This document shows positions 391 through 31,536 of a stretch of 37,707 bases of DNA, in pieces. The translations under genes were made by a program, and so were the position numbers. How positions within the stretch are numbered: the first letter of the stretch is position 1; the number at the start of each line of letters is the position of its first letter. The notes below the pieces were generated by a model. It saw only the letters and a list, made by a program, of their open reading frames with translations. It did not search any database and was not told where the DNA came from. Source of the stretch: Verrucomicrobiota bacterium (GTDB taxonomy: Bacteria > Verrucomicrobiota > Verrucomicrobiia > Opitutales > UBA953); assembly GCA_030831965.1 (NCBI GenBank), contig JAURJZ010000087.1, forward strand, positions 1 through 37,707. The letters run 5' to 3'.

Positions 391-1233
391 ATGTCGCAAG
401 CCTACGTGCCCACCGTGGAGGGCGCCGCCTCCCATTACGACGACCTCGACGCCTTTTACCGCGAGATCTGGGGCGAGCACGTCCACCACGGCGTCTGGGA
501 GGAGGGCGACGAGTCGGACAGGGAGGCGGCGGAGAAGCTCGTCCGCATCCTCGCCGACCTCGGCGGCATCCGCTCCGGGGACAAGGTCTGCGACATCGGC
601 TGCGGCTACGGCGCCACCTCGCGGATTCTCGCCGAGCGCCTCGGCGCCGAGATGACCGGCCTGACCATCTCCGCCACCCAGCTCGCCTACGCCAAGGCCA
701 ACAACGCCGTGCCCGGCCGCACCGAGTTCCTGCTCCGCGACTGGTACGACAACCGCCTGCCCGCCAGGAGCTTCGACGTGGCCCTGACCGTCGAGAGCCT
801 CGAGCACATGCCCGACCTCCCCGGCTTCTTCCGCGAGTGCCACCGCGTGCTCAGGCCCGGCGGGCGCCTCGTCGGCTCCGCCTGGATGTCCTGCGAGAAG
901 CCCGGCGCCTTCGCCCGCCGCCACCTGATCGACGCCATCACGCGCGAGGCCCAGATCGCGGGCATCCGGCCCGAGAGCGAGTTCCGCGCCGCCATCGAGG
1001 CCGCCGGTTTCACCGGCTACACCTTCGAGGACAGGGCCGACCAGGTGAAGCGCACCTGGCCCCTCTGCGCCTGGCGCACCCTCAAGGGGCTCCTCACCAA
1101 GCCGCATTACCGCAGCTTCATCCTCGGCTCGCGCAACCCCAACCGCATCTTCGCCCTCACCCTCTTCCGCATCTGGGCGGCCTACGAGCTCGGCGTCCAG
1201 CGCTACGGGATCTTCGGCGCGTCCAAGGCCTGA
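391..1233 (+). CDS. class I SAM-dependent methyltransferase
   Basis: This 280-residue cytoplasmic protein has the glycine-rich SAM motif I (VCDIGCGYGATS, about residues 67-78), an acidic motif around LLRDWYDNRLP, and the post-II/III segment FRECHRVLRPGGRLV. The N-terminal HHGVW segment is typical of the tocopherol/RebM/sarcosine-type small-molecule methyltransferases. The ATG at 391 was chosen because it follows the upstream stop by 2 bases and precedes the fold; a longer frame from 277 only reads through the upstream gene. No Shine-Dalgarno sequence is seen, which suggests translational coupling. Together with the upstream monooxygenase it may modify a phenolic or quinone product; O-, N- or C-methylation cannot be decided. 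The gene ends 3 bases from the convergent FG-GAP gene. Confidence 0.88.
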   Translation: MSQAYVPTVEGAASHYDDLDAFYREIWGEHVHHGVWEEGDESDREAAEKLVRILADLGGIRSGDKVCDIGCGYGATSRILAERLGAEMTGLTISATQLAYAKANNAVPGRTEFLLRDWYDNRLPARSFDVALTVESLEHMPDLPGFFRECHRVLRPGGRLVGSAWMSCEKPGAFARRHLIDAITREAQIAGIRPESEFRAAIEAAGFTGYTFEDRADQVKRTWPLCAWRTLKGLLTKPHYRSFILGSRNPNRIFALTLFRIWAAYELGVQRYGIFGASKA

Positions 1234-1236
1234 GCC

Positions 1237-2445
1237 TCAGCGCCGGAGGAAGAGGAAGACGCCGTGCTTGTTGGCGAGGGCGAGGTCGGGGCGCGCGTCG
1301 CCGTCGATCCTGCCCGTCCAGAACTGCGTTCCCACGCCGCTGTCGCCGTCGATCTTGTGCGGCTGGTAGGAGGCCCCGCCCTTGCCGTCGCGCTTCAGCA
1401 CGAAGCCGTAGAGCACGGGCGCGGCCATGGGCTCGGGGTCGTTCTTGGTGCCGTGGGCCCACTTGCGCTTGCCGGTGACGATGTCGAGCAGGCCGTCGCC
1501 GTCGAGGTCGACCAGCTCGACGGCGTGGGGCTGGCTGAAGGAGACGCCGTTGAGGACCTCCTGGGCCGAGGCGCCGAGGATGCGGTGCTCGCGGAAGGCG
1601 CCGTCGGGCGATTGCTCGAACCAGGCGAGGCCGTAGCCGTGGGCCTGGAGGGCGGTGATGACATCGGGACGCTTGTCGCCGTTGACGTCCATGACGTGCA
1701 TCTGGGCGCCGCCCGCGCCGAGCTTGGCGGGATGGAATTTCCAGGCGGCCTCGGATGTCCGGTCGGCCGGCTGCTCGTACCAGCCGTCCTTCACGAGGAT
1801 GTCGGCCCTGCCGTCGGCGTTGACGTCCCCGGCGCCGTAGCCGTGCGTGTACTTGTGGGCCTGCCGGGTGGGTTCGCTGACGGCCCGGAACCGCGCCTTG
1901 GCGAGGGGGTTCTTGCCGTCGATTTGGAAATAGCCGAAGCGGCCGCCCTTTTCCCCTGGGAGGGTGGTGTGGACGAGGATCTCGGGCCAGCCGTCGCCGT
2001 CGATGTCCGCAAGCGCGGGCGACTCGCCGTCGGCGACGTCGACCAGCGCGTGCCGAGCCCAGTCGCCCGGCTTGCCGGCGGGATTGACGAAGAGCAGGGC
2101 GGGCTCGCCCGGCAGGCCGAAGACGAGCAGGTCGGGCCAGCCGTCGCCGGTGAGGTCGCGCGCGAACTGCAGGAAGTAGTCGGAGTAGCCGGTCTCCGGG
2201 TTGTAGGGCGTCTTGGTCATGCCGCCCTTGTTGTCCCGCTCCGGCGCGTAGGCGACGCGCTGGGCGAAGTCCGGCCCCTGCCAGATGAAGCGGCCGGCGG
2301 CGACATCCGGGTGGCCGTCGCGGTTGAAGTCCGCCACCGCGCAGCCCTCCGCGACGAACTCCCTGGTCAGCGTCCGCTTCTCGAAGCGAATCTCCTCGGC
2401 CAGGACGAGGCAGGGCAGGAGCAGGAGGGCGGGGGCGGCGCGCAT
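1237..2445 (-). CDS. exported FG-GAP/VCBS repeat beta-propeller protein
   Basis: The 402-residue product begins with a short signal peptide (MRAAPALLLLPCLVLA). The rest is built of about seven FG-GAP/VCBS units, each with a calcium-loop signature such as DFNRDGHPDV, DLTGDGWPDL, DIDGDGWPEI, DVNADGRADI, DVNGDKRPDV, DLDGDGLLDI and RIDGDARPDL. Seven units are what one expects for a seven-bladed, calcium-stabilised propeller like an integrin alpha head. Such proteins are very common in Planctomycetes and Verrucomicrobiota and are thought to bind ligands or partners outside the cytoplasm; no catalytic motif is visible. The gene stands alone on this strand, convergent with the methyltransferase (3-base gap) and divergent from the GNAT gene (80 bases). 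Confidence 0.85.
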   Translation of the reverse strand: MRAAPALLLLPCLVLAEEIRFEKRTLTREFVAEGCAVADFNRDGHPDVAAGRFIWQGPDFAQRVAYAPERDNKGGMTKTPYNPETGYSDYFLQFARDLTGDGWPDLLVFGLPGEPALLFVNPAGKPGDWARHALVDVADGESPALADIDGDGWPEILVHTTLPGEKGGRFGYFQIDGKNPLAKARFRAVSEPTRQAHKYTHGYGAGDVNADGRADILVKDGWYEQPADRTSEAAWKFHPAKLGAGGAQMHVMDVNGDKRPDVITALQAHGYGLAWFEQSPDGAFREHRILGASAQEVLNGVSFSQPHAVELVDLDGDGLLDIVTGKRKWAHGTKNDPEPMAAPVLYGFVLKRDGKGGASYQPHKIDGDSGVGTQFWTGRIDGDARPDLALANKHGVFLFLRR

Positions 2446-5343: not shown

Positions 5344-5365
5344 GTCGTCCCTCCGCTAGCACCGG

Positions 5366-5392
5366 GCCCGGCGAAAGCCGGGCTCTTTTTTT
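5366..5392 (+). terminator. intrinsic (rho-independent) terminator
   Basis: A perfect 7-bp stem gcccggc/gccgggc (5366-5372 and 5377-5383) is closed by a GAAA tetraloop and followed by tc and seven T residues (5386-5392). It lies 23 bases after the stop of the coiled-coil protein gene. This is the only textbook intrinsic terminator in the window. Confidence 0.92.
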
Positions 5393-5443
5393 GCCCCTTG
5401 CCTTGAATAAGGGTGGAGCGTGGGCCGGTCTCGGCCCAATCTG

Positions 5444-6409: not shown

Positions 6410-7081
6410 ATGTCCGGCCTTCCCTCCCGCCTCTCCGCCCTTGTCATCGCCGAGCACGACCGGCTGCTCGCCGACTCGGCCTGGCCGCCCGCCGGGGAGC
6501 CGGCCGAGGGCCGGTCCGAGCCGCTATGGGACTGGATTCGCGCCAACCACCGGTTCAACACCCTGCTCTGGCGCGAGGAGGATCTCGCCCGGCGCACCCA
6601 GGCGGCGGACGCCGAGATCGTCGCCAACAAGCGGGCCATCGACCGGTTCAACCAGCGGCGCAACGACGCCACGGAGCGGGTCGACGAGATCCTCCTCGTT
6701 TCCCTCGGGCTGGTCGATCCCGCCACGGCCGCCTCCGACGCGCCGGTCGCCCGGGTCGCCCCCGGTTCCCGCCTCAACAGCGAGACCGCAGGCAGCATGG
6801 TCGACCGCATGTCCATCCTCGCGCTCAAGGTTCGCGCGATGGAGGCCCAGACCCGGCGGACCGACACCGACGCCGCCGCGCTCGAGTCCAGCCGCCGGAA
6901 GCTCGACCAGCTCCGGCTGCAGCGCCAGGACCTCGGGTCCTGCCTCGACCAGCTGCTGGCCGAGGCCCGCGACGGCCGGGCCCACTTCAAGGTCTACCGC
7001 CAGTTCAAGATGTACAACGATCCCCGCCTCAACCCCGCCCTCGTGGCCGAGGCCAAGGGCGGGCAGGGCGGGGACCGCTGA
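6410..7081 (+). CDS. DUF4254 domain protein
   Basis: This 223-residue, mostly helical cytoplasmic protein matches DUF4254. Conserved positions include [17 protein letters not shown] (about 43-59), [17 protein letters not shown] (about 68-84) and [15 protein letters not shown] (about 127-141), the last typical of the central helix. Charged helices suggest coiled-coil contacts. The biochemical role is unknown; members often sit beside GT9 glycosyltransferases, as here, which suggests a part in glycan assembly. The stop codon is shared with an 18-base palindrome that also holds the stop of the convergent gene. Confidence 0.83.
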
Positions 7082-7096
7082 GCCGCCGGCGGCTCA
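7079..7096. terminator. 18-bp perfect palindrome containing both stop codons of convergent genes
   Basis: tgagccgccggcggctca is its own reverse complement. Its left TGA is the stop of the DUF4254 gene and its right end is the TGA stop of the convergent oxidoreductase gene. In RNA each strand could fold into a 7-bp stem with a CCGG loop. No T-run follows on either side, so intrinsic termination is not assured; it may act as a bidirectional pause or RNA 3'-end stabiliser. Confidence 0.45.
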
Positions 7097-8356
7097 GGCC
7101 TTGCCGGGGACCGGGGGTTTCTCCTCGGGCAGCGTGACCGCGCCCTTCTCGAAGTCCTCGGCGCTCGGCTTGCAGGCCAGGCCGTAGTAGGGCGACTTCT
7201 CGTTCTTCAGCAGGTCGTCCCAGCGGACGATGTCCCCGGTGTAGGCGGAGATGCGGGCCATGATGGCGGCGAGGGTCGACTCGGTCACGGCCTGGGTCTC
7301 GTTGAGGGGCTTGCCCGCGAGGACCGACTTGATGAGGGCGACGTGCTCCTGGACGTAGGGGTTGTCGGACTCGAGCTTGACCTCGGGCACGTCGACCTTG
7401 GTCCCGGCGACGCGTCCGCCGCCGAAGGCCTCGCCGGTGGCGCCGGTGAACTGCTCGCCGACCCGGCTCCAGGTCCCGGTGATCTGCCGGCACTGGCTGT
7501 GGATGTGCACGCCCTGCCCGAAGTCGAAGTCGACGCTGAAGAAGTCGAACATGTTGCCGGTCTCGCGCCGGGCGCGGGCGCCGTAGCCGACGGCCGAGAT
7601 GGGCGGGCGCCCGATGAACCAGAGGGCCACGTCGATGTTGTGCACGTGCTGCTCGACGATGTGGTCGCCGGAGATCTCGGTGAAGTTCAGCCAGTTGCGG
7701 GCGAGGTACGAGGCGTCCGACTCCCCTTGGTTGCGGCGCTTGATCCAAGGCACGGTGCCGTTCCAGTGCACGGTGCCGCCGCGGATCGGCCCGATGGCGC
7801 CGGCGTCGATGCGGGCCTTGTTCAGCAGGTAGGCGGCCTGGTGGCGACGCTGGGTGCCGGCGACCACGCCCAGGCCCTTCGCCTTGGCCTTCTCGCCGCT
7901 CGCCAGCATGGCGCGGGCGCCGACGGGGTCGACGCAGACGGGCTTCTCGATGAAGCAGTGCTTGCCCGCCTCGACCGCCGCCGCGAAGTGAAGGGGGCGG
8001 AAGGCCGGCGGGGTCGCCATGACGACGAAGTCGCAGCCGCTGGCGATCACCTTGCGGTAATTGTCGAAGCCGCCGAAGGCCCGGTCGGCCGGCAGGCCCA
8101 GGCCCTGGGCGGTGCGCTTGGCCGCGTCCTCGAAGGCGTCGCCCACCGCGGTCACCTCGACGGGGATGCCGAGGATCTTGGCCGCGGCCTGGAAGTCGCG
8201 GATGGCCCCGTTGCCCCGGCCGCCGCAGCCGACGAGCCCGACCTTCAGGGTGGCGGGGCGCTTGCCCGCCTCGAGGCCGAGGGCGGGGGCGGCGGCGAGG
8301 GCGGCGCCGGCGAGCGCGGCGGTGGCGAGGAACTGGCGGCGGGGTTGGGTTTCCAT
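7094..8356 (-). CDS. Tat-exported Gfo/Idh/MocA family oxidoreductase
   Basis: The 420-residue product begins with a twin-arginine signal (RRQFLATAALAGAALAAAPA), so it is exported folded, probably with its nucleotide bound, as known for Zymomonas glucose-fructose oxidoreductase. The Rossmann motif is VGLVGCGGRGNGAI (about 39-52) and the catalytic-lysine motif is EKPVCVDPVGAR (about 137-148). The C-terminal half carries DHIVEQHVHNIDVALWF, the conserved helix with the substrate-contacting His. It would oxidise or reduce a sugar or sugar derivative in the periplasm. The gene follows the kelch gene on the same strand after 63 bases, suggesting one transcript. The stop is embedded in the palindrome with the convergent DUF4254 gene. 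Confidence 0.88.
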   Translation of the reverse strand: METQPRRQFLATAALAGAALAAAPALGLEAGKRPATLKVGLVGCGGRGNGAIRDFQAAAKILGIPVEVTAVGDAFEDAAKRTAQGLGLPADRAFGGFDNYRKVIASGCDFVVMATPPAFRPLHFAAAVEAGKHCFIEKPVCVDPVGARAMLASGEKAKAKGLGVVAGTQRRHQAAYLLNKARIDAGAIGPIRGGTVHWNGTVPWIKRRNQGESDASYLARNWLNFTEISGDHIVEQHVHNIDVALWFIGRPPISAVGYGARARRETGNMFDFFSVDFDFGQGVHIHSQCRQITGTWSRVGEQFTGATGEAFGGGRVAGTKVDVPEVKLESDNPYVQEHVALIKSVLAGKPLNETQAVTESTLAAIMARISAYTGDIVRWDDLLKNEKSPYYGLACKPSAEDFEKGAVTLPEEKPPVPGKA

Positions 8357-25291: not shown

Positions 25292-25315
25292 GGCCGGCGT
25301 TGCCCGAAAAGGAAA

Positions 25316-25339
25316 GGGGCGGGCCTGGCGGCCCGCCCC
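25316..25339 (-). terminator. strong hairpin with T-rich tail on the minus strand
   Basis: A perfect 10-bp GC stem (ggggcgggcc/ggcccgcccc, 25316-25325 and 25330-25339) with a 4-base loop lies between two convergent operons. Read on the minus strand it is followed by TTTCCTTTT, so it should end the sugar-conversion operon, whose last stop is 22 bases upstream. On the plus strand no T-run follows, though the hairpin may still stabilise that transcript's end. Confidence 0.7.
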
Positions 25340-25360
25340 TCGCGTCGCGCCAGCGCGCGC

Positions 25361-30091: not shown

Positions 30092-31051
30092 GTGTCTCCC
30101 TTCCTCGACCCGGCCATCCTGTTCTTCGGGGTCGGCCTTTTTGCCGGGCTGGTGAGGTCGAACCTCGAGATGCCCCAGCAGGTCTCGAGGTTCCTCTCGC
30201 TCTACCTCCTGATGGCCCTCGGCCTGAAAGGGGGTTTCGCCCTGGCCAGGTCCGGCCTCACCCAGGAGGTGGCCTCGGGTCTGGTCGCGGCGGTCCTGCT
30301 CGCCGTGGTCGTGCCCTTGATCGGTTACGCCGTCCTCCGTCGCTTCGCCAGCGGCTTCGACGCCGCCGCCCTCGCCGCGACCTACGGCTCGGTCAGCGCG
30401 GTCACCTTCATCACCGCCACCCAGCACCTGGAGACCCACGGCGTCGCCTTCGGCGGCCACATGGCGGCGGCCATGGCCCTGATGGAGTCGCCCGCGATCC
30501 TCATCGCCGTGGCCATGGCCAACCGCCTGCGTCGCGACGTGCCGGGCGCGTCCCCGCCGTCCGGCATCGGCGCCCTCCTCCGCGAGTCCTTCACCGAGGG
30601 TGCCCAGTTGCTCCTTCTCGGCGCCATGGTCGTCGGCTTGCTCTCGGGCGATGCCGGCGAGGCGGCGATGAAGCCGTTCGCAGGCGACCTATTCAAGGGC
30701 CTGCTCGCCTTCTTCCTCCTCGACATGGGCCTGCAGGCGGCGCGCAACCTCCCCGAGGTCAGGGGCAAATCCCCCGCCATCCTGGCGTACGCCGTGGTCG
30801 CGCCCCTTGCCCACGCGTCGCTCGCCCTCGGCCTCGCCGCCGCGCTCGGGCTGTCGGTGGGCGACGGGGCCCTGCTCATGGTGCTCGCCGCCAGCGCCTC
30901 CTACATCGCCGTTCCCGCCGTGCTTCGCCACGCCATGCCCGAGGCCAATCCCTCGGTCTACTTCGGCCTGTCCCTCGGGGTGACCTTCCCGCTCAACCTG
31001 CTGCTGGGAATACCCCTCTATTCCCACCTCGCCCAGCGCGTCCTCGGCTGA
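30092..31051 (+). CDS. SbtA/DUF897-type sodium-dependent bicarbonate transporter family protein
   Basis: The 319-residue protein is almost entirely hydrophobic with about ten predicted membrane helices in two halves. It matches the SbtA/DUF897 family: DPAILFFGVGLFAGLVRSNLEMP at the start (residues 4-26 or so), LYLLMALGLKGGFALA, TYGSVSAVTFITATQ (first half core) and AASASYIAVPAVLRHAMPEANPS (second half core). SbtA of cyanobacteria imports bicarbonate with sodium; other DUF897 proteins have no tested substrate. The GTG at 30092 was chosen because it starts just ahead of the first helix; GTG at 30044 is an alternative. No PII-like SbtB gene is adjacent. It is divergent from the sugar operon and convergent with the NTF2-like gene, 5 bases away. 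Confidence 0.83.
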   Translation: MSPFLDPAILFFGVGLFAGLVRSNLEMPQQVSRFLSLYLLMALGLKGGFALARSGLTQEVASGLVAAVLLAVVVPLIGYAVLRRFASGFDAAALAATYGSVSAVTFITATQHLETHGVAFGGHMAAAMALMESPAILIAVAMANRLRRDVPGASPPSGIGALLRESFTEGAQLLLLGAMVVGLLSGDAGEAAMKPFAGDLFKGLLAFFLLDMGLQAARNLPEVRGKSPAILAYAVVAPLAHASLALGLAAALGLSVGDGALLMVLAASASYIAVPAVLRHAMPEANPSVYFGLSLGVTFPLNLLLGIPLYSHLAQRVLG

Positions 31052-31062
31052 GCGACTCAGCC
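31046..31062. terminator. hairpin spanning both stop codons of convergent genes
   Basis: ggctgag-cga-ctcagcc forms a perfect 7-bp stem with a 3-base loop. The left arm contains the TGA stop of the SbtA-like gene (31049-31051) and the right arm holds the TGA stop of the convergent NTF2-like gene (31057-31059 on the minus strand). There is no T-run. It mirrors the palindrome at 7079-7096. Confidence 0.45.
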
Positions 31063-31536
31063 CTTGCCGCGAGCGGAGGGTTTTGCCCTGGGGGCGGGCC
31101 CTCGGGTGCTCGCCGGCGGGAATTCGGGACGGGGCTTGAGGGAGAAGTGCGTGTGGACCGATTTCCAACCTGAGGCGTCCTTGGCCAGGATCACCGTGCA
31201 CCGTCCGCGCCTACGGGCGGCCTTGCCCTTGGGCCGCGCGGCCATCGAGGTCCATTCGGCTAGCACGCAGGCCAGCATGCCGTCGGCTGAGGCAATCACC
31301 CGCATGCCTCCCTTGGCGAAGGCGAACCCGCGGGTTCGCGGCCAAACCCTGGACCATTGCCTGGACCGGAGGGCGCCGACGCCGTCAGCCCGGTGCACCG
31401 AGGTGCCGAAGCCGACCAATTCCGGGGCGACCAACACGAGTCCGGCGTCGAGGTCGCGCCCCCGGACCGCCTCGGCGAAGGCATCCATCCAAGCCAGGGG
31501 CGAGCCGACCCCGACGGTTTTTTCCGACTTTGCCAT
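31057..31536 (-). CDS. NTF2-like (SnoaL/DUF4440-type) small protein
   Basis: The 159-residue protein has an NTF2-like pattern: WMDAFAEAVRGRDLDAGLVLVAPELVGFGTS as the two N-terminal helices and first strand, then VIASADGMLACVLAEW, RGRCTVILAKDASGWKSVHTHFS as the final strands. The conserved W-K-x-x-H-x-H-x-S end is typical of DUF4440-like members. The tail is rich in Pro, Arg and Lys. No catalytic assignment is possible. It lies 53 bases after the glycerate kinase gene on the same strand and is probably the last gene of that operon. Confidence 0.72.
   Translation of the reverse strand: MAKSEKTVGVGSPLAWMDAFAEAVRGRDLDAGLVLVAPELVGFGTSVHRADGVGALRSRQWSRVWPRTRGFAFAKGGMRVIASADGMLACVLAEWTSMAARPKGKAARRRGRCTVILAKDASGWKSVHTHFSLKPRPEFPPASTRGPAPRAKPSARGKG

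Follow-up and report, generated by a model that had tools for sequence, protein, structure and literature searches.

The perfect palindrome that covers both stop codons of a convergent gene pair in the 37,707-nucleotide stretch of Verrucomicrobiota DNA analysed here (the window) is probably the work of chance, at a junction where two genes nearly overlap and each ends in the C-TGA-G context usual for this genome. A two-way end signal does not seem to be needed to explain the site, which appears to be a fortunate outlier of the way in which genes are ordinarily packed here.

The palindrome and its gene pair

A perfect 18-bp palindrome had been described at 7079-7096 (TGAGCCGCCGGCGGCTCA) by the first-pass annotation. 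It is real, and extends by one base on each side to 20 bp, which makes it the longest found in a palindrome scan of the whole window (Table 1). Both stops of the convergent pair do lie inside it, one TGA in each arm. We class the genes as a near-overlapping convergent pair on the 12-nt gap between their stops and on the Pfam family match of each protein. Relatives of the DUF4254 protein were found in 3 of the 38 genomes searched, its own genome included. Among the 80 loci retained of the 172 matching the oxidoreductase, the top match is 79% identical and comes from an uncultured Opitutae, and nearly all are titled Opitutae or other Verrucomicrobiota. On this one gene, the lineage is likely to be Opitutae-like. 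The window's second-longest perfect palindrome (18 bp, 31322-31339, GCGAACCCGCGGGTTCGC) lies within a SnoaL-like gene.

Two sites that the annotation had cited alongside, at 31046-31062 and 1230-1240, proved to be junctions of the same kind. At the former, 7-bp arms enclose a 3-nt loop and the stops belong to an Sbt_1 gene and a SnoaL_3 gene; at the latter, they belong to a methyltransferase gene and an FG-GAP gene.

Table 1. Positions of the palindrome, its genes and the sites compared with it
Feature	Position	Strand	Details
Palindrome CTGAGCCGCCGGCGGCTCAG	7078-7097		Alone folds into an 8-bp stem with a CCGG loop, -13.3 kcal/mol
TGA stop, DUF4254 gene	7079-7081	+	Inside the palindrome
TGA stop (TCA on +), Gfo/Idh/MocA oxidoreductase gene	7094-7096	-	Inside the palindrome
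DUF4254 protein gene, 223 aa	6410-7081	+	PF14063, E 1.6e-43
Gfo/Idh/MocA family oxidoreductase gene, 420 aa	7094-8356	-	PF01408, E 3.5e-12
Weak terminator-like site	7099-7116	+	5 pairs (3 G-C), loop 8, tail GTTTCTCCTC
Contrast: typical intrinsic terminator with a T tail, downstream of a + gene	5364-5395	+	9-bp stem, GAAA loop, TTTTTTT tail
Contrast: strong hairpin with T-rich tail	25314-25341	-	12 pairs, tail TCCTTTTCGG
Second site, GGCTGAG-CGA-CTCAGCC	31046-31062		TGA 31049-31051 (+), TCA 31057-31059 (-), gap 5
Third site, CTGAG-C-CTCAG	1230-1240		TGA 1231-1233 (+), TCA 1237-1239 (-), gap 3

Stop context and pairing at convergent junctions

The origin that we favour for the site is a simple one. 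Two genes whose ends are separated by 12 nt, and which both have the C-TGA-G customary in this genome, would automatically read CTGAG...CTCAG where they face one another. This gives the palindrome five of its base pairs, and chance symmetry in the GC-rich spacer of 12 nt would have done the rest. The site would then act only as two back-to-back translation stops, with no further function.

An excess of inverted repeats at convergent stops across the genome had been put forward as the mark of a signal, and at face value there is one. In the genome from which the window comes (G000; 1.85 Mb in 96 contigs, 98% complete), CTGAG(N0-12)CTCAG occurs 46 times, against 10 for a reversed control. This excess varies even inside the genus, the counts of motif and control in genus-mates G001-G005 being 22/6, 15/11, 13/11, 11/12 and 22/8. 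For a closer view we used a sample of 656,094 unmasked bases (35% of the genome, with a GC content of about 72%), in which the gene calls came from our own script based on codon usage. This sample holds 22 of the 46 copies and is enriched for them, its large contigs having been picked with the list of motif hits in view; 20 of the 22 cover the two stops of a convergent pair, another covers a single stop and the last is elsewhere, while the control pattern occurs twice.

Convergent genes in this sample are tightly packed. The 84 pairs have a median gap of 6 nt, with 34 at gaps of 0-7 and 13 overlapping. TGA accounts for 497 of 579 stops, and the CTGAG context is found at 78% of the 63 TGA stops in convergent pairs with gaps of 2-14, compared with 49% in convergent pairs with gaps above 14, 50% in tandem pairs above 40, 50% in overlapping convergent pairs and 27% in tandem pairs at 0-40. 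The recurrence of CTGAG...CTCAG is thus accounted for by tight convergent packing multiplied by a one-sided C-TGA-G stop context.

There are two other ways of explaining this recurrence. The first is that the motif is a mobile or binding-site repeat, such as an uptake sequence or a protein site, inserted at gene ends, as the 46 copies and the placement of 21 of the 22 sampled ones at gene ends would allow. We consider this extremely improbable, given that the spacing varies from 0 to 12 nt, that matching across flank positions -1 to -8 is close to what permutation yields (1 of 8 positions at p=0.03, gaps 0-7), and that the 18-mer has one other match in the genome at up to 2 mismatches. The second, which refines the chance reading rather than excluding it, is that tight pairs need efficient translation stops: read-through would run far into the neighbour's antisense frame, TGAG would be preferred to TGAC, which would be the leakier stop context, and the palindrome would be a by-product. 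The median read-through extension is indeed 209 codons in tight pairs (gap 0-14), against 64.5 in convergent pairs above 14 and 109.5 in tandem pairs above 40. Tight pairs use TGA 73 times, TAG 3 times and TAA never, against 170, 22 and 19 among other stops, and G at +1 reaches 86% in tight pairs and is less frequent in spacious ones (Fisher p=0.0003). However, within classes G at +1 hardly tracks the extension: it stands at 6 of 8 (30 codons or fewer) and 47 of 54 (more) in tight pairs, and at 27 of 50 and 75 of 116 for the same divisions in the others. The direction agrees with a cost of read-through, but these counts do not establish it as the cause. The G+1 excess in tight pairs itself counts against the chance reading, and we hold the idea of efficient stops as a conjecture, somewhat less likely than not to be part of the story.

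The two ends of a tight pair are not coupled, as is expected of the chance palindrome. Both ends carry CTGAG in 20 of 33 pairs, where independence predicts 18.2. Partner bases at +1 are equal in 25 of 30 TGA/TCA pairs, compared with 23.7 by random pairing (p=0.32), and those at +2 in 12 of 21, compared with 12.1 (p=0.64). Selection for pairing should favour TGAC...GTCA equally, yet of the six pairs with C at +1, five face G at +1. We also compared folding energies before and after exchanging junction halves between pairs, with 60 swaps per class. Folding at gaps of 0-7 was not weakened by the exchange (z -0.04, n=34), in a test that is blind to any motif common to all halves. At gaps above 40 the same test gave z -5.82 (n=27), which indicates that it is able to detect real terminators, and at gaps above 7 in Rho-positive relatives it gave -7.1 (G008) and -5.9 (G007). 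The remaining classes of the genome gave -0.42 for overlaps (n=13) and -0.85 for gaps of 8-40 (n=9), and tight pairs of other genomes gave -1.13 (G010, n=8), -0.54 (G016, n=8) and +0.15 (G033, n=9).

Other measures do show a residual excess. Against dinucleotide shuffles, junctions with gaps of 0-7 have a mean folding z of -0.63 (n=34, p=0.015 versus coding sequence) and those of 8-20 a mean of -1.26 (p=0.012, for 8 junctions only), whereas tandem stops show no excess (-0.13, n=145). The centres of spacers longer than 20 nt, which in many cases contain genuine terminators, lie little below the tight junctions (-0.87, n=29, p=0.06). Mean window energy is -10.0 kcal/mol at tight junctions and -8.7 in coding sequence. 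The interiors of gaps of 2-60 are symmetrical at 130 of 289 positions, where letter shuffles predict 109.7 (p=0.004, or 0.011 once the 7078-7097 site is removed), while swaps of halves between junctions of the same gap gave p=0.036 for gaps of 2-60, 0.11 for 2-7 and 0.24 for 8-60, the last from 4 pairs only. An earlier permutation of interiors (gaps 2-40, p=0.002) mixed gap classes and is not relied on. We read this excess as weak and as coming mostly from the shared stop context, though it counts as evidence against chance. Selection on the arms for pairing, which the letter shuffles would favour, was rejected on the negative coupling at +1 and +2.

How surprising is the site itself? With a gap of 12 nt, the probability that the interior is perfect is about 0.004, and over the eight sampled gaps of 8-20 nt we expect 0.029 perfect interiors, at match rates that include the 7078-7097 site. 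Palindromes of at least 20 bp number 10 in the 656,094 bases (two of them overlapping in one tract), and 5, 9, 9, 7 and 5 in order-3 Markov simulations, from which it is not clear that palindromes this long are in excess in the sample. The claim that such a palindrome is unlikely by chance is thus borne out, mildly, for its position on two stops, but not clearly for its length. We regard the perfect symmetry as a modest coincidence, met by scanning a whole window.

Nor does the palindrome recur behind related oxidoreductase genes, being absent from all 21 informative loci. For this comparison we took 24 of the 80 fetched loci, 70 bases past the stop; of the uninformative ones, L061 ends 1 base after the stop, and in L064 and L067 the stop lies far beyond the match. 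GGC-AA(A/G)-GC(N)-stop is shared by 14 of the 24, which indicates that the flank beyond the TCA is set by coding.

Transcript ends, Rho and gene packing

The bare 20-mer folds with z -3.4, as expected for a palindrome; in a 30-nt context z is -1.4 and -1.6, and in a 58-nt context -0.47 and +0.26, no better than shuffles. The stem has no U-tract after it on either strand, the bases past the arms being GCCTTGCC (+) and CGGTCCCC (-). A terminator scan of the window placed no site on the palindrome and a weak one just behind it, at 7099-7116, which is probably a chance match: the 19-kb half of the window that holds it contains 5 terminator-like sites, against 6.4 from shuffles. T-tailed hairpins accompany 1 of 47 pairs at gaps of at most 7, 1 of 9 at 8-40 and 11 of 28 above 40, where longer stretches were scanned, and are found in 6 of 475 random coding windows. 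The hairpins at 5364-5395 and 25314-25341 suggest that intrinsic termination is used where space allows.

It is nevertheless conceivable that 7078-7097 works in both directions, as a U-less ("I-shaped") terminator or as a stabiliser of 3' ends, and that its 8-bp hairpin would pause RNA polymerase on either strand or shield mRNA 3' ends from exonucleases. The hairpin, at -13.3 kcal/mol, can form on both strands, tight junctions show the weak folding excess described above, and no Rho is detectable that could do the job. Hairpin ends without a U-tract, as well as two-way ends that overlap, are also described in GC-rich Streptomyces, in the available part of PMC8269248. We think this unlikely, however, in view of the folding in context, of partner bases that are uncoupled and halves that can be exchanged without loss of folding, and of the commonest convergent gap in the sample, 3 nt as at 1230-1240 (10 pairs), where CTGAGCCTCAG permits no stem longer than 4 bp, around a 3-nt loop. 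Furthermore, an E. coli terminator that worked at about 90% fell to below 10% once the stop codon had been brought from 28 to 5 bp away, an effect of the ribosome blocking the hairpin (PMC4824070, from the portion available), and by analogy a ribosome terminating as near as this would be expected to block the hairpin here. The proposal of a two-way 3'-end signal therefore survives in part: the excess of inverted repeats on convergent stops (46 against 10, and 20 of 22) and the weak folding excess remain, while the uncoupled ends, the half-swaps, the missing U-tract and the expected ribosome blocking stand against it.

If the palindrome is a chance one, transcription from either side most likely carries on into the facing gene or has diffuse ends. 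In a Rho-less cyanobacterium, according to the available part of PMC13289151, most transcription units are not ended by known pathways.

Rho appears to have been lost by whole genera of the family. Its RNA-binding domain (PF07497) was found in none of 61 genomes of the window's own genus (6) and a second genus (55), many of which are incomplete, down to 61%, and in all 18 genomes of three other genera of the family. No PF07497 match was detected in the 98% complete G000, with control rings positive in 9 of 14. The best TIGR00767 match there scores 22.5 bits (E 2.2e-5), against a cut-off of 509; weak matches of this kind, seen in every genome searched with TIGR00767, are taken for related ATPases.

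Convergent packing follows the same division within the family, where the median gap in sampled stretches is 5-6 nt in four Rho-negative genomes (GC 53-72%) and 42-158 nt in three Rho-positive genera, one genome each. With both genes of at least 300 nt, the medians are 4-13 and 42-209; the filter takes G005 from 5 to 13. Outside the family, the median is 20 in G033, whose Rho-negative assignment comes from TIGR00767 (78 bits, below the cut-off), and 39, 52 and 11.5 in the Rho-positive G036, G030 and G034. Gaps of at most 20, under the same length filter, make up 94 of 144 pairs in five Rho-negative genomes and 27 of 87 in six Rho-positive ones. We rejected loss of Rho as an established cause of tight packing: only two or three losses are represented, tandem gaps are shorter too, and in the Rho-positive G034 7 of 10 pairs are tight. 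The link between gap and Rho may reflect compaction rather than Rho.

The gaps also keep a register. In the genome sample, multiples of three are preferred among non-overlapping gaps of 0-14 (23:9:6, chi-square p=0.0015), whereas few overlaps fall in that register (2 of 13, Fisher p=0.009). Restricting the pairs to those in which both genes reach 300 nt leaves 22:8:5 and 2 of 12. Other Rho-negative genomes gave 1:3:1 (G005), 4:2:3 (G016), 6:0:1 (G010) and 3:0:0 (G033). In the multiple-of-three register the open frame past the stop has a median length of 337.5 codons. We infer that genes in this register stall at small positive gaps, because overlap there would need a long tail, and that other registers decay into short overlaps.

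A bolder idea is that in a Rho-less Opitutae lineage convergent genes have collapsed together, and that CTGAG...CTCAG is a minimal U-less, stop-embedded, two-strand end signal replacing Rho-dependent termination. Such a signal would tie the end of the transcript to that of translation on either strand, but we give the idea very little credence. Our conclusion is that the palindrome itself matters little. Rho-negative and Rho-positive genera with contrasting gaps within one family make the question of packing testable, though general compaction is not separated from loss of Rho.

Relation to known systems

Models of near-overlap are said to have been put forward by Kingsford and colleagues, and bidirectional intrinsic terminators are reportedly the subject of Ju et al. 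2019. In the literature surveyed we found no account of palindromes formed by the stops of convergent genes, and we do not claim that none is in print. Like a bidirectional intrinsic terminator, the site is an inverted repeat between convergent genes that is readable on both strands; unlike one, it has no T-tract on either side, carries the stops in its arms and has no spacing from the ribosome. It shares with the I-shaped terminators, as they appear in the available part of PMC8269248, a GC-rich hairpin with no U-tract in a GC-rich genome, but it is no stabler than its shuffled 58-nt context and lies on the stops rather than downstream of them.

In Rickettsia prowazekii, transcripts of convergent pairs run on into the facing gene or end without a sharp site, in the part of PMC3027695 available to us, and convergent genes lacking a specific end site, with antisense run-on into the neighbour, are what we would expect here; the ends there were mapped by RNase protection on pairs with gaps of 137-1910 bp, whereas ours are predicted from sequence. 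The closest likeness is to the near-overlapping and overlapping convergent prokaryotic pairs of PMC2174442, whose stops abut or overlap as they do here. The available part of that paper deals with the phases of overlaps and with those of 4 nt (CTAG and similar sequences), and gives stop-codon mutation as the likely origin. Compared with those pairs, the packing of this genome is extreme, with its median gap of 6 nt, and its preference for gaps in multiples of three (23:9:6) has no counterpart in that part of the paper.
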